Assembly (NCBI GenBank): GCA_963082975.1
Contig: OY720344.1
Coordinates: 74,264,053 to 74,328,052 of the forward strand
Direction: 5' to 3'
From: Labia minor
Lineage: Eukaryota > Arthropoda > Insecta > Dermaptera > Spongiphoridae
DNA: 64,000 nucleotides
Shown here: positions 26,501 to 63,150 of the stretch, piece by piece
Position numbering within the stretch: the stretch's first letter is position 1
Layout: the number at the start of each line of letters is the position of its first letter
Notes under the pieces: model-generated
Database searches by the model: none
The model's input: the letters and a program-made list of their open reading frames with translations, nothing else
Told to the model about the DNA's origin: nothing
Translations under genes and position numbers: made by a program

Positions 26501-26933
26501 ATATTGAGATTCTTGTTTCAAGAAAACAACTGCATACATCTCATTAAATATGTAAGTTATATTTAATGAGATAGATGCAGTTATTTTTTAAAATATTTCT
26601 TATTTAATATTTTCTGAAAAAAATTATAAAATATTTATATGAATTTAATGTAAGTACCCATTATAATTTGTGAGATTTGTTGCTATGACAATGTTTGTAT
26701 TTTCTTTCTTCAATATTATAATTTCTAATAAAATGTGTTCTACAATATGCAAAAAAATCGTTATTCACCAATCACTGTTAGAAATATTCATCATATATCC
26801 TTGTCCTTATGAGATCGTAAGCCAGAAATTAATTAATAAAATGACGAAAAGTACCTAAAGTTGTGATGGGGGTCCGTCAAAAAAAATTTTTTCAAGTGGG
26901 GGTCCGTGGAGTACATAAGTTTAAGAACCTATG
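23570..26933 (+). mobile_element. near-complete hAT transposon (ZBED5/SCAND3 type)
   Basis: The left end is CAGTGGTTCTTAAACTGTGG and the right end, inverted, is CATAGGTTCTTAAACTTATG. The octamer ATTTAGAG is exact on both sides (23562-23569 and 26934-26941), giving an element of 3364 bp. GGGGGTCCG motifs are repeated at both ends (23597, 23627, 26868, 26899), probably transposase-binding sites. The 5' noncoding third holds three sets of short tandem repeats: a 55-bp unit twice (24036-24147), a 30-bp unit about three times (24339-24420) and an ATTCATTTAAAATGATTTAAAAC-like unit about five times (24480-24605). The transposase gene is described separately. The exact target duplication and single large lesion suggest recent insertion. 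Confidence 0.93.
24698..26547 (+). pseudogene. hAT transposase with BED finger, one frameshift
   Basis: Frame A (24698 to about 25730) encodes an N-terminal Lys/Ser-rich segment, a BED-type zinc finger (C-x2-C at CVLC, then H-x4-H in HLQTKHSEH) and the start of the RNase H-like fold with YSLQLDESTDVTNNANLL (first catalytic Asp), then GICTDGARAMSG (second Asp) and the C-x2-H segment HCCIHRESLAAK. Frame B (about 25720 to 26547) continues with HTDVRWLSRGKVLIRLFELR and ends with the dimerisation domain YLCEQAFSVLFYIKSKYRNK, stopping at the usual family tail (...RKQLHTSH). The two frames meet at about 25715-25735; relative to the family a few bases after FKILC appear to be missing. Otherwise the protein is full length (about 610 residues), closest to ZBED5/SCAND3/FAM200-type hAT transposases. 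Confidence 0.9.
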
Positions 26934-29415: not shown

Positions 29416-29828
29416 ATGTTGTTATTCATTTTCTTTGGTGCTTTTGTCTGTATCCAAGCAAGTCATTGAGATTATCAGGACAATCATGTAAAAATAAATA
29501 ATAAATTCATTATTTAATGAGATTATTTGAAAGAATATAATATTTTTTAAAGGTAACGGCTCATTATTCTTTAAATTATGGAGTGAATGATGGTCATACC
29601 GATGACCACAAGAACCAATGTGAGATTTGGGAAGATGTACACAAAGAAGAGTACTCTCTCAAGAAAGGTGATGGTTCTATCTGAACTGTGCATTACACCA
29701 TCGATCCCCATAATGGATTCAATGCAGTCGTTAAGAAATTTGAACATGCTTTCCACTCCCAAGTATATCATTACATAAAAACCTCCTCCTACCAAAGTCT
29801 AATCAAACACAAAGACCACCACCATTAA
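29416..29828 (+). pseudogene. RR-2 cuticle gene, broken copy
   Basis: The structure matches the intact genes: acceptor-like TTTAATTAG just before the ATG, coding exon 29416-29487 (signal-peptide text MLLFIFFGAFVCIQAS), donor GTAAAA, then acceptor TTTAAAG and exon 29553-29828. The domain reads TAHYSLNYGVNDGHTDDHKN, later [20 protein letters not shown], ending SLIKHKDHHH. Lesions: a TGA right after the signal peptide (29467-29469), a TGA within the RR-2 domain (where the family has GTIRTV), one codon lost near EDVHKEEY, and the His-rich repeat tail reduced to HYIKTSSY. Exon and intron positions are retained, so it arose by genomic duplication and not by retroposition. Confidence 0.9.
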
Positions 29829-30904: not shown

Positions 30905-32155
30905 TATATATATAATAAATCCCATTAATAAATATGTTTTTCCATTACATTTTTAATATTTTAATATTAAAAAGCTATTAAAACAATTTTAAGAAGAATG
31001 CACAAATGATCTATTACAAAGTTTTAATTGTCTCATTAAAAAGTTCACTTTATTTTTACGACATTTTTGCATTATGCAGTTTAAACAAATAACAAACAAT
31101 AGTATAAAGTAAATTAAATTAAATTAATATATTTATGTATTTTAAATAAATGAGAAAAGTAAAGTAACTTAAGTTTATAAATTGTTTGTCAGTTAATTTT
31201 TAAACATTAATATTTGTAAAAACGCATCTTTTTACAGAAAGCATTTATAAAAATTTATAATAGATTTTACTCTACTTATTTATAATCTAATCTTATCGAA
31301 AAAAAACTAAGTAAAAATAAAAGTACTTATATTTTGGCAATAAAATTTATATATCAAAGGAATTTAATTTGTAAGTAGGTATGTTTCCCTTTTTTTGGAA
31401 AAAATATTTAATAGCATTTTTGTTAAATACTTGATTGTTGTACCAGATATCATCTTCTAGATTTTTTGAATATTTATTATATTTTTATATATTTATATAT
31501 TGTAAAATCAATGTTCAATAATTCAGGTGTGTTTTACTATAATAATACTTAAGTTGATATTCATAATATTATATTCATAATAGTATTTTAAAAAACCAAG
31601 TCCACTTTATAATTACACTTTTTAAGCTCTACTCGAATCCAAAATCAAAATTTAAACGATATACTCAATTTTTTGGCGACAGACACACAGACACACAGAC
31701 ATATGTAGATTTAATATTAAAATTTATATTTGTATATTGTAATTATAAATCTTGAAAACATTTTAAAAACATTGTTTCTTATTTTGATTAAAATTACATT
31801 TTCATTCTGTAAATTAAATAATTTTAATTCATTTAAATAAATATCTATTTTTAAATATTTTTTGCTCTCTACATTATTTATCTAATTCTCACAATATATT
31901 AAGATCATATAAATTGGAATTATTTAAATATGAATAAAAGTTCGTTGATAGTAATGCTTCCTAGCATTCCCAGATGTTTAATTAATAAAAATATTCCAAT
32001 ACAAATATGCAATTTAATCAACTTTTGCTTTGTGATTTTCATCCAAATACTATAATAATCTATAATATATTTAATCTATTTTTTTTTAAGAATTACGTCT
32101 GTTGAAGAAGCTCAACATATATATTTTATACAAAATATTTAAATTAATTAAAATT
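30905..32155. other. gene-free AT-rich stretch with repeat scraps
   Basis: At 31600-31720 a segment (CAAGTCCACTTTATAATTAC ... GGCGACAGACACACAGACA) is shared in part with 29325-29350 and, inverted, with 17340-17400, so it is another low-copy interspersed repeat with an (ACAC/CAGA)n centre. The segment 31795-31910 is nearly identical to 17525-17635. No exon seen. Confidence 0.45.
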
Positions 32156-32600
32156 AATTTGTATTATATGGATGTGAGGCATGGTCTATGAACTTAGAAG
32201 TAGAAGTAGATTTAGAGTATTTGAGAATAGGATTATGCGAAGTATTTATGGGCCACAGAAAGATGAGGTCAGCGGAGAATGTCAGAGAGTGCATTACAAG
32301 GAATCGGATGACCTTTATGCATCTCCAGTTATAGTTAGGATTATAAAATCGAGAAGGCTGCGATGGACTGGGCACATTTCAAGAATAGGAGAGGAAAGAA
32401 TGGCGAAAAATCTATTGGTGGAAAGACCGATTGGGAAACATCTGCTTGGAGGACAAAGGACGCTGTAGGTGGATAATGTAGGAAGGGACGTGAGAGAGAA
32501 GGGACAGGATAGGGATTGGAGGGTTGTGGCTCAGAATAGGGATACTTGGAGAAGTGTGGTTACTTTCGAGTTTCGTAGAACCACAGAGATAGATAGATAG
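32156..32600 (+). mobile_element. LINE 3' end (GATA-tailed family)
   Basis: The plus strand encodes the C-terminal region after the reverse transcriptase: [40 protein letters not shown], then MAKNLLVERPIGKHLLGG. The 3' terminus is CTTTCGAGTTTCGTAGAACC followed by (GATA)n at about 32588-32599. LINEs of the RTE/CR1 group have this RLRWAGHVARMGE tail; I do not assign the clade. It is 5'-truncated, as is usual for target-primed insertions. Confidence 0.8.
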
Positions 32601-34390
32601 AATTAAAATTAATGCTAATGATAATGCGGCATCGTTCAGAGAGGCAGTGACTCCATCTTTGAATGGTGAAATGGGACTGAGGAGATTCTATCCCTTTTTT
32701 CCGGCTGTGGTACCAGCACTCTGTCGTTATATCACCTTCGTCCTCATCTTCTCCTCGTTCATCCTTTGTTTCATTTTGTGTAAGATATTCCATTCTTTAC
32801 AGATTATACTATTTCGAGTATAAGTCTATTGTTAATTCTAGCTTTACTAGAATAGATCCTCTTTATAAAGTTTATTTTGTCGAATATTGGTTAATCAAGA
32901 AAGATCGAACCACACACCTCTTTATAAACGTAATAATTTTCATGACGTCAGCCACTTCGAAGAAACGCTGTTTACTACTTCGAATCATCTCGCTGGACAT
33001 TCGTAAAAGTATCTTTTTGTAACTGTTCAGTTGCATCACCTTTTTATTCATAAACATTAATAATTAAAAAACATTTCATATATAATTTATTTAGAATTAA
33101 GATTTATAGTTATAAGTTGTTATATTTAAGTTAGTTATTAATTATTCCATTATATTTGATATCAAATAATATCAAATATACTAAATCTAATCTTTATGTA
33201 TATATATGTTTAAATGATTATCAAGTTAATAATTATTTAACTTTGGATATATTAAATGGCAAACAAATCTTTGTTATTAATATAAAAAGCACTAATCTTT
33301 TTATTCAGATCAGAAAGAATAATTTGTTTTGAGGGAATTTGTTTATTAATTTCTTAAATCAAACCTTTTCACACGGCGACCGTACAGTACTTAAACTTTT
33401 CTTTGTTTTTATCATCATAAGACAAATACCTCCATAGATTGCCCCAACAACGACAAGCTTAGTATCTTTAAAACATTTGTCTCTTATATAAATTACCAAA
33501 TTCTAAATAATTAGAATAGATTTAATGTAATTTATAATATATCAAACATTACTTTTATGCTTTCTAAGGATTATTGTATTTATTATTTATTTCAAGAAAT
33601 CACATGGCATATATTATATATATATATATATATATATACTTATTGACAAAAAAAAATAGGGGAAAGGCCTTATTTAATTCCCTCTCTAGTACTAAATCCA
33701 TCTATAATATTCGAAATTAATTAATGAACATTCAATTTTTTATAAAAGAGAAAAAATGACATAAGATTACATCCGTTCATTCTAATTAAATTTTTTTCAA
33801 ATTAAATTTAATTATATAAAGATTTCTTTATTATAACGTTAAATATATATATAAGTATTTATGGTATAAGAAATGAAAAAATAAATTAAATTTTAATAAT
33901 CGAATATATAACTAAATACATAACTCATCTATATATAGTATGTAAAATATATTAAATATTATTAAATTTAATAATTAAATATTAGAATTTGTATAAGTAA
34001 ATTATATATCTCGTTCATTCAGAATGGGAAAATATATAGCTTATTGATTTTATAATTTCACGTATTTTTTATATACAGTGAATCTTTTAGTTTTTATTTT
34101 CCTGTTTTGGAAATAATTTTTTGTGTGATCTATTATAATTATATGTATATTTAAATAATTTTTTTATATTAAATAGAATTTATATATTTGTTTGTAAATT
34201 ATAATTTATATTCACCTGTATTAACTAATAAAAAAATTAATATTTACCAATATAACTTTATTAATGAATTTTTACGAAACTAGATGAAACATTTTAATGT
34301 TATGCAAACTAAAATTAAACTCATAATTATAAAACATATCAATAATAATAATTAAACAAAAGTTAGGGGAAGTTTCAATTAATTAATAAA
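32601..34390. other. gene-free AT-rich stretch
   Basis: A mixed-composition patch at 32620-32800 and another at 32880-33050 have no recognisable product. An (AT)n run lies at 33615-33640. No exon or RNA gene supported. Confidence 0.4.
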
Positions 34391-35975
34391 CTAGCTACTC
34401 AGACCGCCATCGGCGCTCTTCGCACCTAGACAGGAGGTATGTCCCCTGTACCCCCAAGGTGGTACATTCTTTATGGTTGAAATTTTGTATATAAAAGATA
34501 TTCAACCATTTTGTTTTAATCAGTATATTAATACAGTCATTTGTTTTTGTATTTATGTAAAATATATTTTAATTTAATCAGTAAATTGATTATATATTAT
34601 TATTGTATATTTTATATCTATCAATCTCTGTGGTTCTACGATACTCTAAAGTTCTTAGCCGCAGGAACCACATTTCTCCAAGAATCCCTACCCTGAGCCA
34701 CAACCATCGATCCCCTATCCTCTCCCATCTCTCTCAAGTCTCTTCCTACAACGGCCTTTGTCTTCCAACCAGACGTTTCTCAATGGGTTTCCACACAAAT
34801 ATATTTTTCACTATTCTTTCGTCTTCCATTCTAGCCATGTGCCCTGCTTATCCAAGACATCTCGATTTTATAACCTTAACTATATTTGGAGATGGTCATG
34901 CAATTCCTCATTATGAAGGTTCCGCCATCCCCCGGTGACCTTATCCTTCTGCCCATAAATGCAGCGAAGAATCATAATCTCAAATACTCTAAATCTACAG
35001 ACCATGTCTCACACCCATATAATACAACCGGAAAAATAATTGTTTTATATATTTCAATTTTGATCCTCTTTCATAATAATTTCATAACTTTCATAATAGT
35101 CTTTCTGCATCTTACTCTTCCTTTACTACCTTAAAGACAAATTTGTAGATCAAAATTTGAAAAATTTTATCAGGATCTATTGAGTGATACTTATGGATTA
35201 CTAAAGTCTACAAATAATTGGTGAACAGAAATATTAAAATTCGCGTTTTTTTTTAATTATTTTAATGAAAGTATCTGATCTAATGTTTATCAATTTGGCC
35301 TGAACTCGAAATGATATCCTCCTAATATTTCCTCCGCCTATGATCCGTAGAATAAATTATAATAGAATATAATATATCTTAATCATTTTATTCTGATATT
35401 TTATTTTCATTGCTTAATTTTTATTGAATATTTTTTATTATAATTAAACTTGAGAAAATCCGAGGTTAAAGATTTTAGAGAATTTATAAAAGACAAATTA
35501 ACATTTTAAGGTTATAAAACTATACATAATACTATATACATTGATTCATAGTATTAATTTAAATCTCCTTTACCTTTGGTCTTTCAACTGATGGTTTCCC
35601 AATTGGTCTGCCCATGACTAACCAAGTTGTCTATCGCACTCTTTTAATCACGTGATCTAAATATTTGATTTTTGACTGACTCATTATAATAAAATTTAAA
35701 CAAATAAAACTTTCCATTTCGGTAATTTATATAAGTTTCAATTTAAACTGAGTCGTACGCTTTGTCAAGACTCTTAATTTAATACCAAGTTGATTTTCAA
35801 AATATTCTAGTTTTTATGCATATGATTGAATACATGTGTTAAAATTTAAACAAATTCAAATATTCTAATTTTTAAATTTATATACAATTTAATATTATTT
35901 TTTAATAAAACATCATATCAAAATAGAGAATTTATAGAAAATTAAAAATAAAAAAAGAAACCTAATAATAAAAAA
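34391..35975 (-). mobile_element. Helitron-like copy 1 (3' part) carrying a LINE segment
   Basis: The 3' terminus on the minus strand is a GC-rich box ending in CTAG followed by T (34391, flank 34390); here the terminal hairpin is degraded (CCGCCATCGGCGC). Between about 34617 and 35345 it carries the captured LINE 3' segment, minus strand, starting at the (GATA)n end. At 35975 it is interrupted by copy 2, and its sequence resumes at 37985 (TATAATAGAATACAATAATT), as judged by the uninterrupted copy at 50011-51712. Its 5' end cannot be located. Confidence 0.7.
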
Positions 35976-37124
35976 CTAGCTGCTCCGAGCGCCTTCGGCG
36001 CTCTTCACACCTAGACGGGGGCTCCGCCCCCTGTACCCCCGAGTGATACATAGTATTTGGTTGAAAGTCTGTATGTAAAAGATTTTCATCCATTTTGTTT
36101 CAATCAGTATAAGTAGATAAGACATGTATTTGTTTGTAAAATATATCTAATCCAAAACATACCTGTTAAAAAGGAGGCCAAGTTCCTATCGGTTATTTGT
36201 TTGCCTAAAAAAGAGTTCAAATCCATCCCAATGCCAAGTTTAGATGCACTTGTTTGTTAATTATCATCCCATGTCCCTTCCTTCATTGTCCACCCACCTT
36301 GGTCCTTGGTCTTCCACCGGATGTTTCCCAATCGGTTTCTCCCAATTTCTAGTTTCTCCAATTCCAACCACGTCCCCTTCCCATCCCAGCCTTCTTGATT
36401 TTATAACCTTAACTATATCTGGACATTATATCTCGTTATGCCATCTCCGCCATCCCCCTGTGACCTCATCTTCTTTTGGCCTATAAATGCTGCGAACAAT
36501 ATTAATCTCACAAATACTCCAAATCGTCTCCCAGAGTCATCGATAGGGTGACCAAACGTCCCGTCTTTAGGTGTTCTGTCCCAAAAAAGTCTTCGGGACA
36601 CCCTACTGTTTTTTCAATATTTAGGACATTTCGTAATTTTTTTTCAAAATTTTTTCAAATTAGTTCTAAAATAAGCGGGAGTGTCCTCCCCTAGACTTTC
36701 CCGCATATAAATAGGTATAAAGAGTTGTGGATGAATATTTAGAATGTGTAAACTTGGTACCTAAAAATATCCATAGGTGAAATTTGGTGTGAAAACAATA
36801 CCTCCCTTACTATCGTCGGTCGGTAAAAAAGAAACGCTACTTGTATAGGTAAAATGTCACTTCCGGTAGTCAGATCATGATGAAATTTGGTATCTCAATT
36901 TTTTTCATATTTTTAAATCTATATACAAAATAGGAAGCAAATATCTCGAAGCAAACTGGTACTTTACTTGAAAGGTAAACGCAACCAGTGTAGGTAAAGT
37001 ACCACTTCCGGTTAACCGATTTTGACGAAATTTTGATAGAAATCTACAAACTGTGAATAATATCGGTGTACCAAATTTCGAAGTCCTAGCTTGATTAGTT
37101 TTTGAGTAAATTTGCTTACAGACA

Positions 37125-37155
<31 letters not shown>

Positions 37156-37984
37156 CACACACACAGACATAATTCGAAAAATGGTATTTTCCGACTCAGG
37201 GAGGTCTAAAACGTCAAGATCTATCGAAATCTCGAAGTCGAAATTTTTGACGATTCCAATACTTCCCTTATACGAAGTATGCGGGAAAGTAAAAAAAGGT
37301 ATACCGTTTGTCCCGGTTTGGCGTTTTCGAAATTGGTCACCCTAGTCATCGATCAACATGAAAAATAATTGTTTTATATATTTTAATTTTGATCCTCTTT
37401 GATGAGATAAGCCCCTTTACTGCATAATAACAGGCGTTGCTCAATTACAACGTCGATTTAAATTCTTCTCGAATATTATTATCCTTCGTGATTAGAGATC
37501 TTAAGTATTTAAATATTTATACTTTTTCAAATTCTACATTTTGTATGTTAATTGTATGTAAGTCGTATCCGTATCATAATTCTTGAATTTTTTTGTTTAA
37601 TTACATTTCGGTTGATTTTTCCCCAATTTCTCTAATCACATGTCTCCTCTTCCAGTCCAATTCATTTACCTGGCTTAAGAAATTTTTTAAAATTTTAAAT
37701 AGAGGGAGAGAGAGAGGTTCTAATTATATATATATATATCTGTTTCTATGACAACAAAAAAGTAAACAAATTACATACATACAAATACTCTCCTTTATAT
37801 ATATTTCTGGAAAATGGAACACCCGCAGCTCAGCTCAGGAGTTACCTAAGATTCTAATTTCTTTTTTATTTTTCATCATTTGAGGTACCCTTCACCTCAG
37901 AAAAATTTGGTTACCTTACTCCTTGTAGTTTAGGCTCTGGAGTTTTTTGCGTACAGACGGACACTATCGTATTAAATATATAGA
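35976..37984 (-). mobile_element. Helitron-like copy 2, inserted in copy 1
   Basis: The 3' end (minus) has the stem GCGCCGAAGGCGC, then TCGGAGCAG and CTAG at 35976, next to T. The 5' end is TCTATATATTTAATACGATA starting at 37984, with A before it. Helitrons insert between A and T without target duplication and end in a hairpin plus CTRR, which this fits. Inside is the LINE segment (about 36260-36535 and 37353-37500), split by a hAT element at 36544-37344. No Rep/helicase frame is present, so it is non-autonomous. Confidence 0.75.
36544..37344. mobile_element. non-autonomous hAT with exact target duplication
   Basis: Terminal repeats TAGGGTGACCA on both strands, sub-terminal GTCCCG motifs and an exact octamer GTCATCGA on both sides (36536-36543 and 37345-37352). 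The target is the LINE segment inside Helitron copy 2. The 801-bp interior is made of other repeats: a family 1 scrap (36780-36826) and a long repeat with an (ACAT)n tract (37121-37165) followed by GAAATCTCGAAGTCGAAATT. There is no transposase. Confidence 0.88.
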
Positions 37985-38929
37985 TTATAATAGAATACAA
38001 TAATTTGGATTAAATGCAAATTTAAAATTTTATATTATGTAGATTAGCTTTATAAGCACTTTGGTTGATTCACAATCATCAAGATCTTTCTTCTTCTTTA
38101 CTTCTGATTATTTCTGATAACAACTGAAATGGTCAAAAAACTTATTTATTAATAAATTTGAAACTTAACTAAATGTTCAATAAACAATTAATATGATAAC
38201 AATAATTTGTTTTATTTTTATGAGTTTAATTTTCATAAAATAATTGATTTTTGATAATTTTGTAAAATAAAATAAATAAAAAGGAAGGATTAATGTTCAA
38301 CTTACGAATTTACTGCTCTAATATAATATTCACATTATAAAAATAAAATTAAATACAGAGATTTAATTTTGTAACAGTTAAAAAGAATTTTCAATAAAAT
38401 AAAATATAAATTTTCGAATGAGAAATATATATACATAAATCATTTTTATTATAATATATAATTTAAAAAAAAACAATATTTTCAATATTTATATTCAAAT
38501 ATATTTAAAATTAAATTAAATATTATTCTGATTGAATTTTTGATTATCATTTTGTTTAATTAAAATAAAAGTTCATTAAATAATGTCTGTAGCTGTTATT
38601 AATTAAATTTCACGTTTTTCTTTTTAAAATAATTCAAAGACCTGAGATTAAATCCCATTCTTTGAATTTAATTAATAAGACTTTAAATAAAATTGAAACG
38701 AACAAAATTTATGAAAATAATAAAATTAATATAAATAGAGTATAATAAATTTTATAATCAAAAAAATAAAAGTTAAATATTATAAACAATTGAATTTTAT
38801 GTGAATTTATAATATAAATTAGATAACACTTTTTTTTAAATAGAATGTTGAAAATTTACATAATATTTTCTCTTTGTTCTCTTAAATAGCCTATCTAATA
38901 ATTTTTAATTTCTTATTTTACTGAATCAA
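37985..38929. other. continuation of Helitron copy 1, then gene-free AT-rich DNA
   Basis: The first 50 bp resume copy 1. Beyond that I see AT-rich sequence with no exon. Confidence 0.4.
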
Positions 38930-39285
38930 TTTTTCGATGTCGAGATTTTGATGTTTTTATACGTTTGGAAGGTCCCTGTGTCATTTTCACTACGGTTGAG
39001 AAAAATGTCTGAGTGTATGTGTGTGTATGTAGACAAGATTAAGCAAAAACGGTTTGAGCTAGAATAATGAAATTTGGTATACGGGCATTATTCAAAATTC
39101 GTAGTTTACTTTTGAGAAATGTAGCTCATGCGGAAGTGGGTTCTTACCTACCACGTTTTTATTTTTTCCCCTCTAAACTAACCGTAAAAATAAAGTTGTT
39201 TGATGATTAAAAATTCTATAAAACTGTTATATATAGAATGTCAGCTTGATTGAATCACTGAAAGTACCGGAATTAATTTTTTCTT
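38930..39285 (-). repeat. interspersed repeat family 2, minus orientation
   Basis: From TCGATGTCGAGATTTTGATG (left, the 3' end of the family) through a TG microsatellite (39012-39035) to AATCACTGAAAGTACCGGAA. The terminal CGAGATAGT segment is not preserved at the left. A LINE 3' tail (CTTTCGAGTTCCGTAGAGAC then (GATA)n, 39292-39326) abuts it on the right. Confidence 0.65.
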
Positions 39286-39329
39286 AACTAACTTTCGAGT
39301 TCCGTAGAGACACAGGGATAGATAGATAG

Positions 39330-39900
39330 ATTATACAATTAATTAATTATAATTCAATTATATTTCTTCCATACCTTCTAGGGATCCATTATTATTATTT
39401 GCGTTTGGACCATCTAGGATCACGCAAAGCTCCCATATACAAGGGTATTAAGATGTTAAGTGGGCCCATATATGAATGTTCTTTTGGTGTAAACTTTATT
39501 CTTCTTTTTGTGTGCTCGTGAAGAACCGGATTCTCCAGGTGACGGGTAGATTGGGTACCACCTGGAGTTATTCTCATCACGATCCATTGTTGCTTATGGT
39601 TGCTTGTTTTTGAAGTAGTCCTGCTGGTGCAGGGTTGTATAGAACCAGAGCTTGTCAGTTCCTGGAGCTAGAGGCAGCTGATGTTAAATTGAATTTATTA
39701 GAAAAATCCGTTCTTGGTTAGAATCGAACGCCGACTTCTTGTGTAGAAGGTTGCCACGCTACACTCTCGGCCAAGCGACCTCTAGGGATCCATTGAAATA
39801 TCTATAAAAATTTTCAAAAGTCTATTTAAAGTTGATGAAAAATCGATTTCAATTTGTCATAAGAGCGAACAGGCACACAGACAGACATTAAGCCAAGTTG
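39330..39900 (-). repeat. interspersed repeat family 3, split by a SINE
   Basis: The two parts flanking the SINE (39335-39390 and 39782-39900) together match the continuous sequence at 53385-53550 on the other strand, including CATAAGAGCGAACAGGCAC versus its counterpart near 53410. The core text (GATGAAAAATCGATTTCAATT, GACAGACATTAAGC) resembles other microsatellite-centred repeats here. Confidence 0.7.
39391..39781 (-). mobile_element. tRNA-derived SINE with 13-bp target duplication
   Basis: The minus strand starts AGGTCGCTTGGCCGAGAGTG, an A-box region like tRNA-Leu/Ser, followed by CGTTCGATTCTA as B box about 45 nt on. Then comes a unique body of about 300 bp (CAGGAACTGACAAGCTCTGG, GTCACCTGGAGAATCCGG) and a short (AAT)n tail. 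The 13-mer CTAGGGATCCATT is exact on both sides (39378-39390 and 39782-39794). RNA polymerase III promoter, A-rich simple tail and long target duplication define a SINE, presumably mobilised by a LINE. The tail is (AAT)n, unlike the (GATA)n of the LINE family here. Confidence 0.9.
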
Positions 39901-41108
39901 ATAAAAGGGTTATAATAAGATATAAGATATACATTTAGAATTTTTATTTAAATTTATTGATTTATTTCGTTTATTATTCAAATATGAATGTTGATACACT
40001 GCATATGGAATATAATCAATTCATGTTATGAATTAATTAAAGGGAAATATTATCAAAAATTACGAATCCATTTTAAAGAGCTTAGTGAGCATTTAGAAAA
40101 GCTGTCTTGTAAAAGTTAGAGAGCAAATTAATAATTCAAAACTCAACTGGGTCCTCTACAAACAAAATTAATAAACAATATATACAAACAAAAGAAAACA
40201 AATAAAATTGACTAAATGAGTTAAAATATTTTTTTTTATTCGTATCATTAAACGACATTAAAAGTCATTAAAATTATAGGTAGATATATTATCTATATAA
40301 AGAGGATGATATTTTCTGCTTTCAATTTCATATACTACTATTTTTAAAAATAATTATCTTTTAAATCTTTATTAAACATGTTTTTGCTCTTCGCACAAAG
40401 GTTCTGCCCCTTTGTGATGCATTAAGTTGAAAGTCGATATATAATAGGTGTTTTCATTTATTTTATTTCAATCAGTATATATTAACATCTTCATTTTCTT
40501 CTTATTTTTCAATTTAATTTAGTCAGTAATTATTTTTATATTTTCTTGTGTATGTTATAATGGGATATAATATTGCTTAATATTCATTTTGTAATACGTT
40601 TTTTATAATCATTGATTTATCGAATAGTTTTTAACATTAATACAAAAAGGTAAAGTTCAGACTTGGCAAGCAATTCATGCAATTAATGCAGTTCAAGTTA
40701 CCCATTTCTTAATATCGGCATGGCACTTTTTTTATCCACTCTCATTTTTTTTATTAATTCTAATCTTATTTATTTAGACTTATGTGTATGTTAAACTTTA
40801 TATGAAATATAATCCGTTTACATTTTGAAATTAATAAAATTTATACTTATTTTAAAATGATCAATGCTAAAAAAATAATGATGATTACTTACAATTGGTG
40901 AACTGTATTTTGCAGATAATTTCAATTTCCATCATCATCAGAGATGGAGAGAATAATCCAGAATTCAAATCAACATCCAATAGCAGGAATGAAGATTGAA
41001 GCATGAAATAGAAGTCAAAAATAACATAATAAATTATGAAATTTTAAAATAGATAAATATAAATTGACTTAAAAATATAATTAATAATAAATACTTCGTG
41101 TTAATAAA
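39901..41108. other. gene-free stretch with decayed Helitron scrap
   Basis: At 40383-40620 the text GCTCTTCGCACAAAGGTTCTGCCCC ... TTTATTTCAATCAGTATAT is a diverged version of the 3' section of the Helitron-like family (compare 50030-50220). The rest is AT-rich without exons. Confidence 0.4.
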
Positions 41109-43550: not shown

Positions 43551-43596
43551 TCTATATATATAAAGGAGAGTGTTTGTATGTATGTATGTATGTATG

Positions 43597-43627
<31 letters not shown>

Positions 43628-45453
43628 TTTGTTTACTTTTTTGCTGTCATAGAAACAAACAAAAAAGAAATTTCCTACTTAACCGACACTTTACCGGTAA
43701 TTTAGAATTATGAACATCAAAAAATAAGAAACGATTTCTATGAAATTACATCACAATATTCTTATATATCTCTATGGTAACATAGGCTATAGATTTTATT
43801 AATATCTAATTCTAATCAATAACCGCAGAATTTAATTTTTTTAAGTTTATATAGTTCTCCGTGTTGTTCATTCAAGAGCCAGGCGTGGCCCACTGACTGG
43901 CGGACTCATTTTACACAATGTATATAACTAGCAATCAAAGAATTATTATAATATTTAACTTTTTATTTTCAATTCTAATATTCAAATATCATTTCAATTA
44001 AATAATTTATTCTAAAAGTTCTCATTTTAATTAATATAATAAAATATTTAAATCATATTTAACTTAAATTATTTTGTATTTATTCTTTCTATATTTGAAT
44101 ACTTCTTTTATTTTAAGGGAGGGAATTAACTATGATCTAAAAAAATTAATAAATGAACTTAATAATAAAAAATCAAATAAATCCATTAATTTAAATTAAT
44201 ACTATTAATGAATGTATATATTGTTAATTTATCTTTAGTTTTATCAATACTTTTATACCGTTAATTTTTATAAATTGTCTCAAGTCTCTAACTTTGCATT
44301 TTCTAAAATTTTATTATAATTAAAAATATTCAATAAAAATCAAGCAATGAAATTAAAATATCAAAATGAAATGATCAAGAAATATTATACTCTATTATAA
44401 CATATACAATACTTATAAACTATAGGCGGAGGAAATATTATACGATATCATTGCGGGTTCATGCCAAATCGATCAACATTAATTAAGATATTTTCATTAT
44501 GACAAATATTAAAAAAACCGCGAATTCAATATCTCTGTTCACTAATTATTTGTAGACTTTAGTAAAACCTACGCATGACTCAATAGATCCGGATAAACTT
44601 TTTCAAATTTTGATCTTAAAATTTATCTTGAAGGTAGTAAAGAAAGAGTAAGATGCGGAAATCAATTGTAAAATATTAGGTGATTCAGACGACTTAAATA
44701 TAATAGGAGATTCGGCAATTGTGTAATTACAGATAGCGAGGAAAAATTAATCGAGGTAGGAAAAGAGATGAGGTTTGAAATTAATAATGATAAATAAATA
44801 TATTTAGAAACAAACAGGAGCAGTATTAACATACAAAATGTAGAATTTGAATATGTAGAAAAATTGAATGTAATCACGAAGGATAATAATATTTGAGAAG
44901 AATTTAAATCGAAGTTGCAATCGGGAAACGCCTGTTATCATGCAGTAAAGAGGCTTATCTCATCAAAATTATTATAAAAGGGAATGAAAATTAAAATATA
45001 TAAAACAATTATTTTGTCTGTTGTATTATATGAGTGTGAGACATGGTCTATGATCTTAGGAGATGAGAGTGGATTCAGAGTATTTGAGAATAGGATTCTC
45101 CCCAGCATTTATGGGCCAAAGATGAGGACACCAGGGAATGACGTAAGAAAGATGGAACAGAGGCTCAGGATAAGGACACTTGGAGAAATGTGGTTGTAGC
45201 TGCCAAGAACTTTCGAGTAGATAGTTATAACATATTCAATAAAAATATATATAATTAATTTATTGATTAAATTAAAATATATTTTAAATAATCACACAAT
45301 AAGAAATGAATGTTTTATGTTATACATTGATTGAAACAAAATGGATGAAAACCTTTTACTACTTTCAACCAAATACTATGTACCACTCGGGGGTACAGGG
45401 GGCGGAGCCCCCGTCTAGATGTGAAGAGCGACGAAGGAGCTCTGAGCAGCTAG
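43551..45453 (+). mobile_element. Helitron-like copy carrying a LINE segment, precise ends
   Basis: Begins TCTATATATATAAAGGAGAG after A (43550) and ends GAGCAGCTAG before T (45454). A (TATG)n tract follows the 5' end (43573-43626). At 43740-43880 is a block (ATTACATCACAATATTCTTA, GTGTTGTTCATTCAAGAGCC) shared with 61560-61690 in the copy at 58615. LINE-derived sequence occupies about 44425-45215 in the same direction. At 45380-45440 come the GC-rich box (GGGGGCGGAGCCCCC is a perfect stem) and a diverged 3' hairpin (GCGACGAAGGAGC). There is no replication protein. It is 1903 bp. Confidence 0.82.
44425..45215 (+). pseudogene. captured LINE reverse-transcriptase/3' segment
   Basis: Plus-strand pieces read TNYL...FSKTYAHDSIDPDKLF (reverse-transcriptase block with the first Asp region), then ILGYSDDLNIIGDSAI (the catalytic YxDD box, here Y-S-D-D), then NACYHAVKRLISSKL, VVLYECETWSMILGDESGF and RVFENRIL. 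The stretch between the first and second blocks is missing, and the joint is the same in the copy at 58615 (59590-59640), so the deletion predates Helitron amplification. Several stops and frame changes are present. Confidence 0.8.
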
Positions 45454-45957
45454 TAATATTAATAAACAATATTTATTAAACCAGCGCGTGTTTGGCTCTT
45501 TGTTGATGGCACCACGCCAGGTGCTTTCGTGTGATTCGCAGTGTTAAAAAATTAATTCCTACTTTCAGCGATTCAATCAAACTGAAATTCTATATATAGC
45601 AGTTTTATACACTTTTTAATCATGTGAAAAACTATCAAACATATATCTTTATTTTTACGGTAAGTTTAGAGGAAAATAAATGAAAACTTGGTATGTAATG
45701 AGTAATGACCCACTTCAGGATGAGCTACATTTCTCAAAAGTTGATAGAAAATTACGAATTTTAAATAATGCCCCTGTACCAAATTTCATGATTCTATCTC
45801 AAACCGTAATTTTGTACACACACACAGACACAGAGAGACAGAGACATTTTTCTCAACCTTTGTATTTTCACTCAGGGACCTTCAAGACGTATAAAAACAT
45901 CAAAATCTCGACATCGAAAATTTTCGTGAACGCAATTCTATCTCTAGCGAGATAGTA

Positions 45958-46914
45958 AAAATTATTGACAGATTAAAATAATTTTTCATAAATTACAAGA
46001 GCAATTGTTTCTTTCATTTGGAATCATACTTTGTCAGTTATGTGATAACAGTTAATTTTATCTCTTCATTGTCTCAACAAGCTATGGATGATAAATTAAA
46101 ATCAAAACAAAAAAACTTATTGATTGTTAATAATAAATTCTCATAAAATGAACATTCCTTCGCAAAGAAAAAAAAAAATGAAAAGGAAATGATAAAAGTA
46201 TTGATAGCTATATTTTTTAGAGATTACATTTAGAAGATGAAAGGTTGCTTTGTTGTTTTGAATAGAATTATTCTTTTTTCGTGTATATACTATATAAATT
46301 CTTTTTTGTACATTGAAATCTTTGTTTGGAAAAAATTTGAATAATCCAAGGGGACGTGAGTAATGGTTCCAACCAACACTCAAGAGACGGAAGCTCGGAT
46401 GTTTGGTAGGGGAATAGTTATTTCCGTTTTTGATTTTAAAAAAAAGAAAAAAATTCTTAACAAAAACTTTATTCTAGTAGATATATTAACATATGTGACA
46501 ATAGTATAGTGAGATGGACAATAATAATTGTAATTCGTTACATAAATCGCCACTGTAGTGGAAATATCCTTCCGATGAACAATAATACAAAAATCACTAT
46601 GAATATAAATACCAAGTAATAGAAAACAATTTCTCGGGTATTTTATGAAAAATTATTAGAATCAGTCAATGGTTTTCAATTTTAATTTTAATTTAAAGTC
46701 AATATGATTGTAACAACTATTATTTTGAGTGAAAAGTAAAAAAAATGTGACTGCTATTGATTCCGCAGGAACCTAAATTCAAATTAATTTATTAATATTA
46801 TTTAATTTTAATTAATTATAAAATTAATAATATTAGTTGTAAGATAATTTATAATTTTAAGCCTTTTATTTTTATTGTAATAAATTAATAATTTTGACTA
46901 CATCCCTCCCTTAC
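45958..46914. other. gene-free stretch
   Basis: AT-rich; no exon, RNA gene or shared repeat recognised. Confidence 0.4.
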
Positions 46915-50010: not shown

Positions 50011-51712
50011 CTAGCTGCCCCGAGCGCCTTCGGCGCTCTCCGCACCTAGACGGGGGCTCCGCCCCCTGTACCCCCCCGAGTAAAAGGTTTTCATCCATTT
50101 TGTTTCAATCAGTATATTACATAAAACATTCATTTCTTTTTGTGTTCTTATTTAAAATACATTTTAATTTAATCACTAAATTAATTATATATATTATTAT
50201 TGTATAAGTTATATCTATCTATCTATGTGACTCTAAGGAACTCGAAAGTTCTAGGCCGCAGCAACCACATTTCTCCAAGTGTCCCTATCCTGAGCCCTTG
50301 TCCCATCTCTCTTAAGTCCCTTCCTACACGTCCTTGGTCTTCCAAGCGGACGTTTTCCAATCCATAATCTTTTTCCTCTCCCATTCTAGCCGCGTCCCCT
50401 GCCTATCGCAGCTTTTTCGCTTTTATAACCCTAACTATTTCTGAAGATGCATAGAGGTCATGCAATTCCTCGATATGCAGTCTCCGCCATTCCCCGGTGA
50501 CCTCATCTTTCTTTGGCCAATAAATGCTGGAAAGAATACTCTGGATCTACTCTCATCTCCCAGGGTGATAGACCTTGCGTCCCACCCATATAATAAAACA
50601 GGCAAAATAATTGGTATATATATTTTAATTTTGATTCCTTTTGATAATAATTTTGATGAGATAAGCCTCTTTACTGCATGATAACAGGCGTTTCCCGATT
50701 ACAACTTCGATTTAAATATATTCTTCTCAAATATTATTATCCTTCGTGATTACATTCAATTTTTCTACATATTCAAATTCTACATTTTGTATATAGATTT
50801 TTTTTACTAAATATTTTTTCTTATCACCATTAATTTCAATCTGAATTAGAAGAAAATTATAAATTACCTCCTCTTCCACCCCATTTACCTATCCAGGCAT
50901 CTAATTTCTTAACATTCCGTTTTTTTTAAATTTAAAATAAAAGGAGATAAATAGTTTTAAATTATATTCGAATGGTCTATTATATTCTATATATCAGTAT
51001 TTTTTTCTGAATTTAATACCAACTTGATTTTCAAAATGTTCCATTCGATATCCATATGATTGATTACATGTGTTAAAATTTAAAAAAATTCAAATATTCT
51101 AATTTTTAAATTTAAATACAATTGAATATTATTTTTTATTAATATCATATCAAAAAAGAGAATTTATTAAAAATTAAAATTAAAAAAAGAAGCCTATTAA
51201 TAAAAAAATATAATAGAATACAATAATTTTGATTTAAAACAAATTTTAATTTTAAAAAAAAATACTCAATATAAAAAAGACATAAATTTAAAACATCTCG
51301 TAATATCATTTGTCTAAAAAACATATTTTAATTAACCAAGAAATCATTTTTGCACTTAAAATATATTTGTAATTAATAATTGAAACAAAAAAATAATATA
51401 ATTTAGTCATTTTAATTGAAGTTTTGAAAATATTTTTGTATTGATAAAAGTTTAAAAATAATATATTCAGTTTTTTTAAGCTTTCACTTTCAAATAGAAA
51501 AGAAGAAATATTCAATTATATAGAAAGAATAAATAAAAATTAAGTTAAATATGATCTAAATATTTTATTAAATAAATTTAAATGACAACTTTTAGAATAA
51601 ATTATTTAATTTAATTGATATTTAAATATTAGAATTTAAAATAAAAAGTGAAATATAATAATTTTTAAATTCTGAGCAATATGCAGACAAAAACCTTTTT
51701 TATATATATAGA
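50011..51712 (-). mobile_element. Helitron-like copy carrying a LINE segment
   Basis: The 3' end (minus) has the perfect stem GCGCCGAAGGCGC, nine more bases and CTAG at 50011, next to T. The 5' end is TCTATATATATAAAAAAGGT at 51712 with A before it. The internal order matches the other copies: GC box with GGGGGCGGAGCCCCC, an AT-rich spacer, (GATA)n, the LINE segment (about 50215-50830, minus), then about 850 bp of AT-rich Helitron sequence. It has no inserted element at the site where copy 1 holds copy 2 (near 51210). Confidence 0.82.
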
Positions 51713-53886: not shown

Positions 53887-54486
53887 CACTCGACTATCTA
53901 GCAATTTGAATTGGATTAAATAACATAATATATTATATTTAAATTTAATTTAATTAATTATAAATTATAAATTGAAATTAATAGATAATATTTATAAAAC
54001 CAGCGCATGTTTGGCTCTTTGTCACGTGTTGGCGCGTAAGATTTGCAGTGTTAAAAAATTAATTCTGGTACTTTCAGCGATTCAATCAAGATGGAATTCT
54101 ATATATAGTAGTTTTATACAATTTTTAATCATGTGAAAAAGTATCAAACATATATCTTTATTTTTAGTCACTTTAGAGGAAAAAAAATCAAAACGTTGTA
54201 GGTAATGATCCTCTTCCGATTGAGCTAGATTTCTCAAAAGTTGAAAGAAAACTACGAAATTTGAATAATGCCCATGTATCAAATTTCATAATTCTAGCTC
54301 AAACCGTTTTGGCCTAATCTTGTCTCCATACACACATACACACACACACACACACCTACACCCATACACACACACACAGACATTTTTCTCAACCTTAGTG
54401 AAAATGATTCAGGAACATTCAAAACATCAAAATCTCAACATCGAAAATTTTCGTGATCGCAATATTATCTCTGGCGAGATAGTAAA
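53887..54486 (+). repeat. interspersed repeat family 2, complete copy
   Basis: Starts CACTCGACTATCTAGC and ends ATCTCTGGCGAGATAGTAA, with a (CA)n/(CACAC) centre at 54327-54382. This is the best reference for the family's limits. Confidence 0.75.
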
Positions 54487-54897
54487 AATGCCTGCTTCTC
54501 TATCTCTCTATGACTATTAATAACAACTGCTCATATAAACTTTCAGTTTTTCTTTTCTTTTTTTTAAAACCTTTCAATAATCTATATGGTTAGTCGGCTA
54601 TTACGGATGACATACTCGTATGTATCATGATTTTATGGCGCACCTCATACCAAAAATATATTAAATAGCCTAATATTGGATGTATTTTTACCAATTATCA
54701 TACACTGGTGCCTTTACCCTATGTATATTTCGATTAAAATAAGAAAAAATGATATTGAATTAAATGAAGATTAATAGATATCGATTATTAGATCTTGAAA
54801 AATAAAATGGAAGGGTAAAAATTATAATAAATAAATCATTCTTAAAATATTTTAATAGGTCTTAAATAAATTAGGTATAATCAATTCAATGGGATTG

Positions 54898-56545
54898 TTA
54901 ATAATGATGGTCTTCGTGTTTGATGAGACTTTGGTAGGAGGAGGCCTTTCCGTAATGATGGTGATCGTAGGTGATGGGTTGATGATGATGAATGAGTGGT
55001 TGATGGTGGTGAACGATGGGTTCATGATGATATACTTGGGGGTGGGCAGCATGTCCAGATTTCTTAACGACTGCATTGAATCCATTATGGGGGTCGGCAG
55101 TGTATTGCACAGTCCGGATAGTACCATCAGCCTCTTTGAGAGAGTACTCTCCTTTGACTACATCACCTTCCCGTGTTTCCCATTGGTCCTTGTGGTCCCC
55201 GGTATGTCCATCACTCACTCCATATTTAAATGAATAATGGGCAGGAGCCTGAAAATTGAATTCAATATATTTTTTTTAAAATACCTAATACTCTAATTAA
55301 TAAAAATTATTCATACTTAATTTAACATAAATCTGATTGCTTTTCTAAATTTAATGATAAATACATTATTTATTTATTTAATCTACGATGTGAATAGAAA
55401 TGCTTTCTTTTATTGACCTTACCAATTGTTTTGTGTGGTGTAAACTCGTATAGAAGGTCACAATCTTTGACTGATTCCTAAAGACCAATTTTATTTTCAA
55501 AATTTTTCGATTATAATATTAAAAATGTTTCTGAAAAATTTTTTTTTAGTATTAAATATCCGCAATATTAAATGATATTAACTAGACTTTATTATAGCAA
55601 CCATAATATCAATAAGTTCATTTTTTTCCTGAATTCCAGTTTTTTGAATTATTTTTAATTATTTTTATTATTTTTTATTATTTGGAGTGTTTATTTGTTA
55701 CTGTTTTCAATCTGTTCTTCATCAAAAATTTAAATACTTAGGTTCTGTGATAACGAAAGATAATAATATTCGAGATGAGTTTAAAGCGAGGTTACAATCG
55801 GGAAACGCCTGTTATCATGCAATAAAAGGGTTTATCACATCAAAATTATTATCAAAGAGGATTAAAGTTAAAATATATAAAACAATTATTTTACCGGTTG
55901 TATTATATGGATGTGAGGCATGGTCTATGACCTTAGGTGACGAGAGTAGATTTAGAGTATTTGAGAATGAGTTTGAATTCACCGGGGAATGGCGGAGATT
56001 GCATAACGTGGAATTGCATGACCTCTAAGCATCTCCAGATATAATTAGAATTATAAAATCGAGAAGGCTGCCGTGGGCAGGACACGTGGCTAGCATGGGA
56101 GAAGATAGAATGGCGAAAAATATATTGGTAGGTAGACCGAGTGGGAAACGTCCTCTTGGAAGACCAAGGACACGGTGGGTGGATTATGTGGGAAAGGATG
56201 TGAGAGAGATGGGAGAGAATAGGGACTGGAAGGTTGTGGCTCAGAATAGGAATACTTGGAGGGGTGTGGTTGTTGCAGCCAAGAACTTTCGAGTTCCGTA
56301 GAGTCTCAGAGATAGATAGATAGAACTATCCACATCTATTTTTAATATCTAAAATATTTCTACTTGTGAACTATAATAATTAATAATTGAATTGTATATT
56401 ATTAAAAACTAAAATTATAATTGATTCAGTTTACAAAGGATATTTCACTTTGACTTACATAATAATCGTGTTTATCATCATGATGATCCCAGAGTCCTGC
56501 ATGTGCAAACGCAGCTGTACATAAGAAAATAGTGACCATCAACAT
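54898..56545 (-). CDS. RR-2 cuticle protein, gene 2 (two coding exons)
   Basis: The first coding exon is 56459-56545 (acceptor TTTATTATAG directly before the ATG; donor GTAAGT). The second is 54898-55248 (acceptor AATTTTCAG). They join in phase 0 to give 145 residues. Signal peptide [16 protein letters not shown], then [13 protein letters not shown], then the RR-2 domain: [49 protein letters not shown]. The tail has [20 protein letters not shown] instead of the YHHEQPII repeats of gene 1 and ends HEDHHY. The domain is nearly identical to gene 1, so the duplication is recent or the copies have undergone conversion. The 1.2-kb intron contains a LINE 3' end (55700-56322). The upstream minus-strand TATAAAAG (56702-56695) may be its TATA box with a short noncoding exon. 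Confidence 0.95.
55700..56322 (+). mobile_element. LINE 3' end in the intron of cuticle gene 2
   Basis: The plus strand reads [72 protein letters not shown], a stop, then [20 protein letters not shown] and the terminal [11 protein letters not shown] with its stop. CGTAGAGTCTCAGAGATAGA leads into (GATA)n. Lesions: a deletion after RVFENEFEF, which removes most of the IYGPKKDEV block, and one in-frame stop. It is 5'-truncated and antisense to the host gene. It is not within a Helitron, so it shows the LINE's natural 3' terminus. Confidence 0.85.
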
Positions 56546-58614: not shown

Positions 58615-61600
58615 CTAGCTGCTCAGAGCGCCTTCGGCGCTCTTCACACCTAGACGGGGGCTCCGCCCCCTGTACCCCCGAGTTGTACATAGTATTTGGT
58701 GGTTGAAAGTATTAAAAGGTTTTCATCCATTTTGTTTCAATCAGTATATTACATAAAACATTCATTTCTTTTTGTGTTCTTATTTAAAAAATATATTTTA
58801 ATTTAATCACTATATTAATTATATATATTATTATTGTATATGTTATATCTATCTACCTATGTGGCTCAAAGATACTCTAAAGTTCTTAGCCGCAACAACC
58901 ACATTTCTCCAAGTGTCCCTATCCTGAGCCCTTATTCCATCTCTCTTACGTCCCTTCCTACGCGTCATTGGTTTTCCAAGCGGACGTTTTCCAATCGGTC
59001 TTCCCACCAATATCTTTTTCCTCTCCCATTCTTGCCACGTGCCCTGCCTATCGCAGCTTTTTCCCTTTTATAACCCTAACTATTTCTGAAGATGCAGAGA
59101 GGCCATGCAATTTCTTGTTAGACAGTCTCCCTCATACCCGGTGACCTCATCTTTCTTTGGCCAATAAATGCAGGGAAGAATCCTATTCTCAAATACTCTG
59201 AATCTACTCTCATCTCCAAGGATCATAGACCATGCCTCCCACCCATATAATGCAACAGGCAAAATAATCTTTTTATATATTCCCTTTGATAATAATTTTG
59301 AAGAGATAAGCCTCTTTATTGCAGATAACAGGCGTTTCCCGATTGCAACCCCGATTTAAATTCTTCTCAAATATTATTATCCTTCGTGATTACATTCAAT
59401 TTTTCTACATATTCAAATTCTACATTTTGTATATTAAGATTTTGTATGTTAATACTCTTCCTCTTTGTTACTAAATATTTTTTCTTATCACTATTAATTT
59501 CAAACCTCCATTAAATTTTCCTCGCTATCTGTAATTGCAATTGCCGAATCTCCTATTATATTTAAGTCGTCTGAGTAACCTAATATTTTACAATTGATTT
59601 CCGCATCTTATTCTTTCTTTACTACCTTCAAGAGAAATTTGAAGATTGAAAATTTGAAAAAGTTTATCCGGATCTATTGAGTTATGCGTATGTTTTACTA
59701 AAGTCTACAAATAATTAGTGAACAGAAATATTGAATTCGCGGTTTTGTTCCTAATATCTGTCATAATGAAAATATCTTAATTAATGTTGGTCGATTTGGC
59801 CTGAACCCGCAATGATATCTCCTAATATTTCCTCCGCCTATAGTTTATAAGTATTGTATATGTTATAATAGAGTATAATATTTCTTGATCATTACATTTT
59901 GGTATTTTATTTTCATTGCTAGATTATTATTGAATATTTTTAATTATAATGAAACTTGAGAAAATGCAAAAATAGAGACTTGAGACAATTTATAAAAATT
60001 AACGGTATAAAACTATAGATAAATGACCAATATATACATTCATTAATAGTATTAATTTAAATTAATTGATTTATTTGTTTTTTTTATTATTAAGTTCATT
60101 TATTAATTTTTTTAGATCATAGTTATTTTCCTTAAAAGAAACTTAAATTCTGTGGTGCTAGGGGATTTGAAAATTATTCGTCGCAATATGAAGATTTCGC
60201 TTACAGTTTCTGTCATGTCCGACCTCCATCCAACAGTTATTTTCTGTTAAGTTTTTTGCTTCTCTTAATCATGTGATCTATATATTTAATTTTTTTTGAT
60301 TCATTATAATAAAATTTAAAAAAATAAAAATTTTTACTTTGTTAATTTATATAAATTTCAATATAAACTGATTGTGAGTGATACGCTTAGCCAATACTCT
60401 GAATATTTTGTGTACAAAAATATTGAATGTTCTTAGCGAGATTTGATATAATGTTGTACGATTTGTCCTAAATCTGAATTAGAAGAAAATTATAAATTGC
60501 CTCCTCTTCCAGCCCAATTCATTTACCCACCCATGTTGCATATGGCATCTAAATTTCTTAAAACTCCGTTTTTTTAATTTAAAATAGAAGGAGAGAAAGA
60601 GTTTTAAATTATATTCGAATAGTCTATATATTCTATATATTAGTATTTTTTTTCTGAATTTAATAGCAAGTTGATTTTAAAAATTTTCCATTCTTAATGC
60701 ATATGATTGATTACATGTGTTAAAATTTAAAAAAATTCAAATATTCTAATTTTTATATTTATATATACAATTTAATATTATTTTTTATTAATATCATATC
60801 AAAAAAAGAGAATTTATTAAAAATTAAAAATAAAAAAAGAAGCCTATTAATAAAAAATTGAATGGTGATTTAAATATTTTATTAAATTAATTAAAATGAG
60901 ACCTTTTAGAATAAATTATTTAATTGAAATGATATTTAAATATAAGAATTTAAAAAAATATTATATTCTTTGTTTGGCAATTGTTATTTAATTATGTGCA
61001 ACATGATTCGACTTGCACAGAGCATCGTTATTTTTTATTAATATCACATAATAAAAATGAATCTTTTAAACATAATAAATAAAAAAGACATTTTAATAAA
61101 TTTAAAAAATATACCCAATTTAAAAATGTCAAAAATTTAAAACAACTTTATATCATCATATTTTAATTTTATATATAATATATATATATATTTAGTAATT
61201 AATAATAGAGTAATTAAATTAAAATAAAAAACAAAGATAATATAATTCAGTCATTTTAATTCAGGTTAAATAATATTTTTTTTTATTATTCAATGATAAA
61301 ATTTATATATTATTATATATATATTATAGAAAAGAAGAAATATTCAATTAAATAAAAAATAATTTAAGATAAAAATATGATCTAATAAATATTTTAATTA
61401 AATTGAGAACTTTTAGAATAAATTATTTAATTGAATTGATATTTGTATATTAGAATTTAAAATAAAAAGGGAAATATTATAATAATTCTTCGATTGGGAA
61501 ACTCTATGATAATTCATTGTTTGAAATGATTCCGCTAGGCCGACAGTGAGCCGCGAGCTGCTCTTGAATGAACAACACGGAGAATTATATAAACTTTAAA

Positions 61601-61740
61601 AAATTAATTTCTGCGGTTATTGATAAGATATTAATAAAATGTATAGCCTATGTTACTCTAGAGGTATATAAGAATATTGTGATGTAATTTCAAAGAAATC
61701 GGTTCAGCCAATTCTGAGTCTATAAAATAGTAATTTTCCG

Positions 61741-61835
<95 letters not shown>

Positions 61836-61949
61836 GTGAAAAATTCTAAAGTCACTTTTGGATTCTAGAGGTCATGAAACGCGAAGATATGCAAAAATTT
61901 TTAAATTCTGAGCAATGTGCAGACAAAAACCTTTTTTTATATATATAGA
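58615..61949 (-). mobile_element. longest Helitron-like copy, carrying a LINE segment
   Basis: The 3' end (minus) has the stem GCGCCGAAGGCGC, then TCTGAGCAG and CTAG at 58615 next to T; the 5' end is TCTATATATATAAAAAAAGG at 61949 after A. It is 3335 bp. Order from the 3' end: GC box, spacer, (GATA)n at about 58846, LINE segment 58855-59840 (minus strand: [28 protein letters not shown], and further in a YSDDLNIIG box), AT-rich body, then a block with (GACA)n (61741-61834) shared in part with 43740-43880. No Rep/helicase gene, so non-autonomous. Confidence 0.82.
61741..61834. repeat. (GACA)n microsatellite
   Basis: About 23 uninterrupted GACA units within the 5' section of the Helitron-like copy. 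A long Cys-Leu-Ser-Val frame across it is repeat translation, not a gene. Confidence 0.95.
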
Positions 61950-62934: not shown

Positions 62935-63150
62935 GACCTCTATGCATCTCCAGATATAGTTAGAATTATAAAATTGAGAAGGGTGTGCAATGCGCAGGGC
63001 ACGTGGCTAGAATGGGAGAGGATAATGTAGGAAGGGACCTGAGAGAGATGGGAGATGATAGAGATTGGAGGGTTGTGGCTCAGAATAGGGATACTTGGAG
63101 AAGTGTGGTTGCTTTCGAGTTCCGTAGAACCACAGAGATAGATAGATAAA
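62935..63150 (+). mobile_element. LINE 3' end, short copy
   Basis: Reads CTCTATGCATCTCCAGATAT (YASPDIVRII), then a GHVARMGED segment, RDLREMGDDRDWRVVAQNRD and the terminus CGTAGAACCACAGAGATAGA with (GATA)n. The [19 protein letters not shown] block is deleted between about 63020 and 63030. Confidence 0.75.

Follow-up and report, generated by a model that had tools for sequence, protein, structure and literature searches.

Helitrons are known to capture gene fragments. A 64,000-nucleotide stretch of the Labia minor genome (hereafter the window; C1:74264053-74328052, 27.5% GC) contains five Helitron copies in which the 3' segment of a long interspersed nuclear element (LINE) is found, and this composite family can be compared with several described rolling-circle elements. 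The copies are called E45 (43551-45453, +), E58 (61949-58615, -), E50 (51712-50011, -), E35 (37984-35976, -) and E34 (start unsettled to 34391, -). Their ends are of the kind described for canonical Helitrons in the accessible parts of two reports (PMC4778049, PMC3789558). Helraiser and Helibat1 of bats, as far as the available text describes them (PMC4778049), resemble the present family, for which a Rep/helicase (RepHel) partner with the same 3' end is likely. However, the present family is non-autonomous, carries a LINE segment and has a second palindrome further upstream, and its hairpin lies 9 nt from CTAG, compared with 11 in Helraiser.

According to the available sections of the silkworm study (PMC3789558), Helitron interiors are very variable, the insertion of other transposable elements (TEs) is one possible cause of long copies, and new Helitrons have formed from two, which may be compared with the odd 5' end of E35. 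Those sections describe no such composite family, and TE-related proteins were discarded from the capture count. In rice, retrotransposons occur inside Helitrons in at least two long copies, a likeness to the present case, but amplification of a composite goes unmentioned in the accessible part of that report (PMC2575219). Helentrons and DINE-1 are rolling-circle elements that are also linked with non-LTR retrotransposon sequence; in the available text (PMC4067079) the link consists of an endonuclease domain and the target is T-rich, whereas here the linking sequence is the decayed 3' segment of a LINE and insertion is at A^T. The insect Hel1 family took up segments stepwise and was then amplified, as here; the portion of the report at hand (PMC6544945) attributes this uptake to filler DNA, whereas in the present family the passenger's own target duplication reveals the route. 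No description of this LINE-Helitron composite was found in the accessible parts of the literature searched. The composite is of a kind already known rather than a new kind of element; its scale and the completeness of its record stand out.

The family very probably arose by one LINE retrotransposition into an ancestral Helitron, followed by rolling-circle amplification of the composite. One ancestral copy of a non-autonomous Helitron (5' TC preceded by A; 3' hairpin, 9 nt and CTAG followed by T) would have been entered once by a 5'-truncated LINE, and insertion by target-primed reverse transcription would have produced a 16-bp duplication and the (GATA) tail. The composite would then have multiplied by rolling-circle transposition, presumably via RepHel proteins encoded by autonomous Helitrons whose 3' end is the same, and internal deletions would afterwards have generated the subtypes. 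We infer the catalytic steps, and the movement of this Helitron family by these RepHels, from the sequences. An earlier interpretation made from the letters of the window (the sequence-only reading) had proposed that the Helitron captured the LINE. The direction, LINE into Helitron, is supported, but the 16-bp repeat, the 5' truncation, the tail, which is that of the LINE itself, and the precise empty site that LINE-free Helitrons preserve point to retrotransposition and hitch-hiking instead of capture.

The Helitron 3' hallmarks first noticed in the sequence are present in all five elements. The GC box occurs at each of the five named places (0 mismatches at 35989, 50024 and 58628; 2 mismatches at 34404 and 45428), against 0.02 matches expected in the window search; a sixth match at 1771, with 2 mismatches, shows no Helitron end and was rejected. 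CTAG followed by T is the 3' end of 5/5 elements, and a 3' hairpin is predicted for each with RNA parameters, more weakly in E45, where it contains 2 mismatches, and in E34. The 5' start first proposed for all five stands for three: TCTATATATATAAA is exact only at 43551, 51712 and 61949 (E45, E50 and E58), with A before each. The 5' TC itself is also present in E35, which begins with TCTATATATTTAATACG at 37984, as shown by its empty site. The start of E34 is unsettled; a candidate, TCTACATAATATAAA near 38043, was seen by eye only and is unconfirmed.

Insertion between A and T without target duplication, another feature noted at the outset, is borne out by two empty sites. When the flanks of E45 are joined, they match a dispersed repeat at 7011-7348 (+; 88%), the empty site of the repeat it entered, and again at 53887-54207 (84%), the match running straight through both repeat copies. 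The joined flanks of E35 match from 51253 to about 51006 (-; 88%), an empty site within E50. At both sites insertion was at A^T and target duplication is absent; the preference of Helentrons and DINE-1 for TT or T-rich targets was seen at neither. Both empty sites are paralogous. By the tests made, the element is a canonical, non-autonomous Helitron.

A search of the genome (604 Mb in 71 contigs, the window included) found 5,896 occurrences of the exact 3' end (2924+2972) and none of the control. The 60 copies fetched for comparison are the first 60 of 100 places listed among these ends; they come from the 0.24-5.5 Mb region of contig C1 and every one has an exact hairpin, which biases the sample to young copies and misses LINE-free copies with decayed hairpins. 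The 9-nt spacer between hairpin and CTAG and the next base, T, are found in 60/60 (CTAG itself was required by the search pattern), and the second palindrome further upstream is kept in 53.

The same 3' end also accompanies RepHel genes. The genome contains 104 matches to Pfam Helitron_like_N, and the open frames of some exceed 1,600 aa. Downstream of the RepHel loci at C5:34.9 Mb and C4:72.5 Mb, the same DNA runs to CTAG followed by T, with differing flanks beyond it (by eye). The last 66/66 bases of both loci are identical to the end of E58, the similarity extends over 151 bp at 94.7%, and just inside this 3' end lies a stretch 83% like the 5' end of E58. A decayed locus at C1:482-494 kb combines Rep, PIF1 and Pif1_2B domains with the last 65 bp of the family at 97%; possibly this end is that of a small derivative. 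The fetched copy L019 was rejected as a plain 3' end of an adjacent decayed RepHel because a RepHel-N-terminus-like piece stands directly before its last 65 bp (by eye). The sequence-only reading had looked to an autonomous partner with the same ends; judging from these loci, such a partner is likely, though not proven, the correspondence extending to the 3' end at two of them. Elsewhere, five decayed RepHel copies at G000:C5:46739897-46771612 (-) have equal scores and regular spacing, as if tandemly duplicated, and the RepHel N-terminus loci L086 and L087, on C5 and C4, contain in-frame tandem repeats in open frames of 2039 and 1722 aa.

The route of the LINE is recorded most clearly in E58, the longest Helitron copy in the window (58615-61949, -). 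Its LINE segment extends from the 5' truncation to the (GATA) tail (58848-59851, -) between perfect direct repeats: TATAACATATACAATA stands directly before the LINE start (59852-59867, -) and the same 16 bases follow the tail (58832-58847, -). None of 1000 shuffles gave a repeat of 16 (best 15; 24 gave at least 12). In E45, alignment to E58, L55 and other copies delimits an internally deleted LINE segment at 44412-45225 (+), preceded by TATAACATATACAATA at 44396-44411 (+) and followed by the second target copy, with one mismatch, at 45226-45241 (+). E50 (50011-51712, -) has lost the 5' part of the LINE through an internal deletion, while the 3' part of E34 (34391-35975, -) retains the LINE and the second target copy, the 5' part of this element lying beyond E35. 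The LINE has one orientation in the Helitron elements of the window. Its junction at (GATA)n, initially ascribed to all five elements, is present in four; in E35, with a LINE that lacks the (GATA) tail, some 130 bp of different sequence take its place. The 5' LINE junction survives in 21 of the 60 fetched copies, all with the same 5' truncation, and the two 16-mers are identical in 8 of them, differ at one base in 3 and at two or three in 8.

A 5' truncation, its own 3' tail and a target duplication were all found in the passenger, which behaves like a LINE; the name rests on this structure and on Y-x-DD-like and other motifs that we take to be those of a LINE. No Pfam reverse transcriptase match was obtained for the decayed LINE pieces of the window, and a PDB search with pieces of the LINE frame yielded only chance-like matches (E 0.13-0.64). 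Because the 16-bp duplication lies at the 5' truncation and at the tail, the LINE probably entered by its own target-primed insertion. Capture of a genomic LINE copy by the Helitron, through end bypass or filler DNA at a break, would equally place the LINE within Helitron ends, and Helitrons are known to acquire sequence by such routes, according to the available text on Hel1 (PMC6544945). However, a 16-bp target duplication exactly at the 5' truncation and tail is not predicted by capture, and neither is a LINE-free relative in which the target is single; capture is highly improbable.

Outside Helitrons, as the sequence-only reading correctly stated, the LINE ends at (GATA)n and Helitron sequence is absent. 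Four such ends, near 32600, 56320, 63148 and 39330, belong to solo copies at 32150-32612 (+), with a 13-bp duplication AATTAAAATTAAT (2/1000 shuffles reach 13), at 55728-56324 (+), with no clear duplication, and at 62932-63150 (+), and to a very short LINE end at 39290-39331 (+). These copies bear on a further idea, already raised as a possible refutation, that the GC box and the end form part of the LINE's own 3' untranslated region. The LINE and the hairpin end are indeed found together in most copies whose end is intact. However, the 3' ends of the four solo LINEs, none of which is full-length, stop at (GATA)n and lack the GC box, the end is present in LINE-free copies (4/8 with CTAG) and at RepHel loci, and the Helitron ends have no target duplication. 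The probability of this idea is next to nil.

A scripted test found the LINE in 57/60 fetched copies, and one more was recognized by its LINE tail. The boundaries of the LINE vary among them, a pattern that had been considered potentially fatal to a single composite. The tail adjoins the second target copy in 38 copies; in 14 the LINE is fused to the last ~65 bp via a short similarity, CACTTGG/CACTCGG (by eye), and tail and target are gone; 5 have another junction, and 3 gave no LINE match. By eye, the last three comprise L047 with a short LINE tail, L052, from which the LINE was lost, and L019, with the RepHel-N-terminus-like piece in its place. Later internal deletions would explain these varying boundaries, with which they fit.

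LINE-free copies preserve the empty site of the LINE. The relic R40 (40450-40634, -) has a single target copy at 40544-40559 and aligns across the LINE site (70% over 212 columns, E 1e-18, 85 bits; shuffle maximum 43, 0/1000 as high). A 41-base LINE-free junction pattern with up to 3 mismatches occurs at nine sites in the genome (control 0), a search that undercounts old copies, R40 not being among the nine. Eight of these sites are LINE-free Helitrons that have a single target copy and are 71-83% identical to E58 minus its LINE; L078 was rejected as a LINE-free copy since it carries the LINE. By eye, CTAG is still visible in 4/8, and T is the next base in three of these. One LINE-free copy of about 680 bp overall, L075, has 65 bp like the 5' region of E58 and ends in CTAG followed by T. 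The Helitron sequence downstream of the LINE tail occurs at 4,288 genome sites (up to 3 mismatches; control 0), a number that can include LINE-free copies; the two zero-mismatch sites of this search, L069 and L070, carry the LINE (by eye) and were rejected as LINE-free.

Upstream of the insertion point, the LINE-free copy L080 is 73% identical to the LINE of E58 over 71 bp (E 2e-7); its match to the solo LINE at 55.7 kb is 80% and spans 41 bp (E 3e-6), and L077 contains a LINE-like match of 28 bp at 93% (E 2e-7). These older LINE-like stretches lie at positions 1-350 of L080 and 80-250 of L077. Reversed controls gave no match in this upstream test, and neither did L075 or E34. The Helitron family may have received LINE sequence twice, a suggestion that is weaker than the main result.

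A tree was built from 24 LINE-bearing rows (the 21 sampled copies in which the 5' junction is clear, E58, E45 and E34) and nine LINE-free rows (the eight loci and R40; L078 excluded), with 455 columns. One change is needed, with support of 83/86 for the separating branch; one change also suffices in 87% of 200 bootstrap trees, and 0/500 label shuffles are as low. Median identity is 87.2% within the LINE-bearing copies, 67.1% within the LINE-free copies and 72.0% between them, and the larger divergence of the LINE-free copies makes them look older. In the window, LINE and Helitron parts have diverged to a similar extent within each pair (91.4 and 93.3% for E45/E58; 79.0 and 85.2% for E58/E34). 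A single origin of the LINE in this Helitron family is supported by the tree but not strongly. Were the LINE-bearing form ancestral, the LINE-free copies would be secondary, having lost the LINE by recombination between the 16-mers. Direct repeats can recombine, and only eight LINE-free genomic copies are confirmed, but the LINE-free copies are the more diverged and fall outside the LINE-bearing group, and the pattern search undercounts old copies; secondary loss is very unlikely.

Several observations weigh against a single retrotransposition followed by amplification. Recombination between the two 16-mers, with precise loss of the LINE, would leave one target copy too. The 16-mer pair differs at four bases in L023 and at five in L037 (12 and 11 of 16 match), and in 9/21 copies, which have the common variant ..CATAGAAAATA in the 5' target copy (two or three changes), the pair is imperfect. 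R40 and four of the eight LINE-free copies have no visible CTAG end. The bootstrap is not settled, and the tree contains four long branches, several of them LINE-free, and four rows of odd composition. The third RepHel locus, on C6, has no such end within the 901 bases looked at, and the comparison of RepHel loci covers the 3' end only. Finally, the LINE of E34 is no closer to that of E58 (79.1%) than to the solo LINEs (78.2-83.6%), so that a common origin rests on the junction and the tree and not on LINE identity. Equal distances of this kind would be expected if LINEs had inserted independently at a favoured site of different Helitron copies, and the related LINE-like end further upstream in LINE-free copies also speaks for such insertions. 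However, the same 3' junction in 38/60 copies, the identical 5' truncation of the 21 in which the 5' junction survives and the one change in the tree make independent insertions extremely improbable.

E35 (35976-37984, -) lies inside E34 and differs from the other copies at its 5' start. At 37740-37984 (-), its TC start is 179 bp upstream of sequence like the 5' end of E45, as if a new 5' start had been acquired. This subtype, recognized by the E45-like 5' piece and the LINE layout, accounts for 6/60 sampled copies, and the tail junction is present in five of the six. E35 also contains an insert at 36544-37344 (-; by eye) with the terminal inverted repeat TAGGGTGACC and an 8-bp duplication, TCGATGAC, which is presumably of the hAT-like class. 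Three of the 60 fetched copies (L009, L027 and L061) have in common an insert of ~650 bp, located between about 2030 and 1370 bases upstream of the terminal CTAG, with terminal CAGGGCCGC and the 8-bp duplication GTCTCAAG. We take this insert to be hAT-like as well; to judge from its sequence, it is a further nested element that the Helitron has multiplied. Microsatellites occupy similar places close to the 5' ends of E45 and E58, (GTAT)n at 43580-43625 (+) and (GTCT)n at 61860-61740 (-); (GTCY)n microsatellites reportedly hitch-hike.

It is rather unlikely that the family is a serial collector of elements, having gained an older LINE-like end, a second LINE and later a hAT-like element, with a passenger that may have helped its carrier instead of simply riding along. 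On this view, the lineage that gained the second LINE is the one seen to be abundant, and its passenger could have aided it, for example by altering silencing or transcription.

Other features of the window include an insect cuticle protein gene at 54898-55275 (-; Pfam Chitin_bind_4), with stretches similar to it at 8571-8954 (+) and 29541-29770 (+). Two overlapping open frames at 24671-26547 (+) weakly match a BED zinc finger and a hAT dimerisation domain, in every case under the Pfam cut-offs, and encode a probable hAT transposase. The repeat that supplied the empty site of E45 belongs to a dispersed family (7011-7348, 22450-22805, 38928-39282, 45454-45962 and 53887-54489). At 63275-63600, two facing Helitron-like 5' ends of different families lie beside a LINE fragment that leaves the window end (by eye).

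Neither the Helitron-end patterns (two in viral contigs, one in genome contigs) nor the LINE peptide (viral contigs, genome contigs and phages) matched anything in collections that are viral or prokaryotic and thus uninformative on rarity.

Empty sites at both levels, that of the Helitron and that of the LINE within it, show how such a composite forms: a retrotransposon enters by its own mechanism, and the carrier spreads it. The passenger's target duplication, together with passenger-free relatives, allows true Helitron capture to be told apart from nested insertion in a simple way. For annotation, the implication is that apparent LINE 3' ends may in thousands of cases be cargo of Helitrons; LINE copy number would then be overestimated and LINE age estimates distorted.
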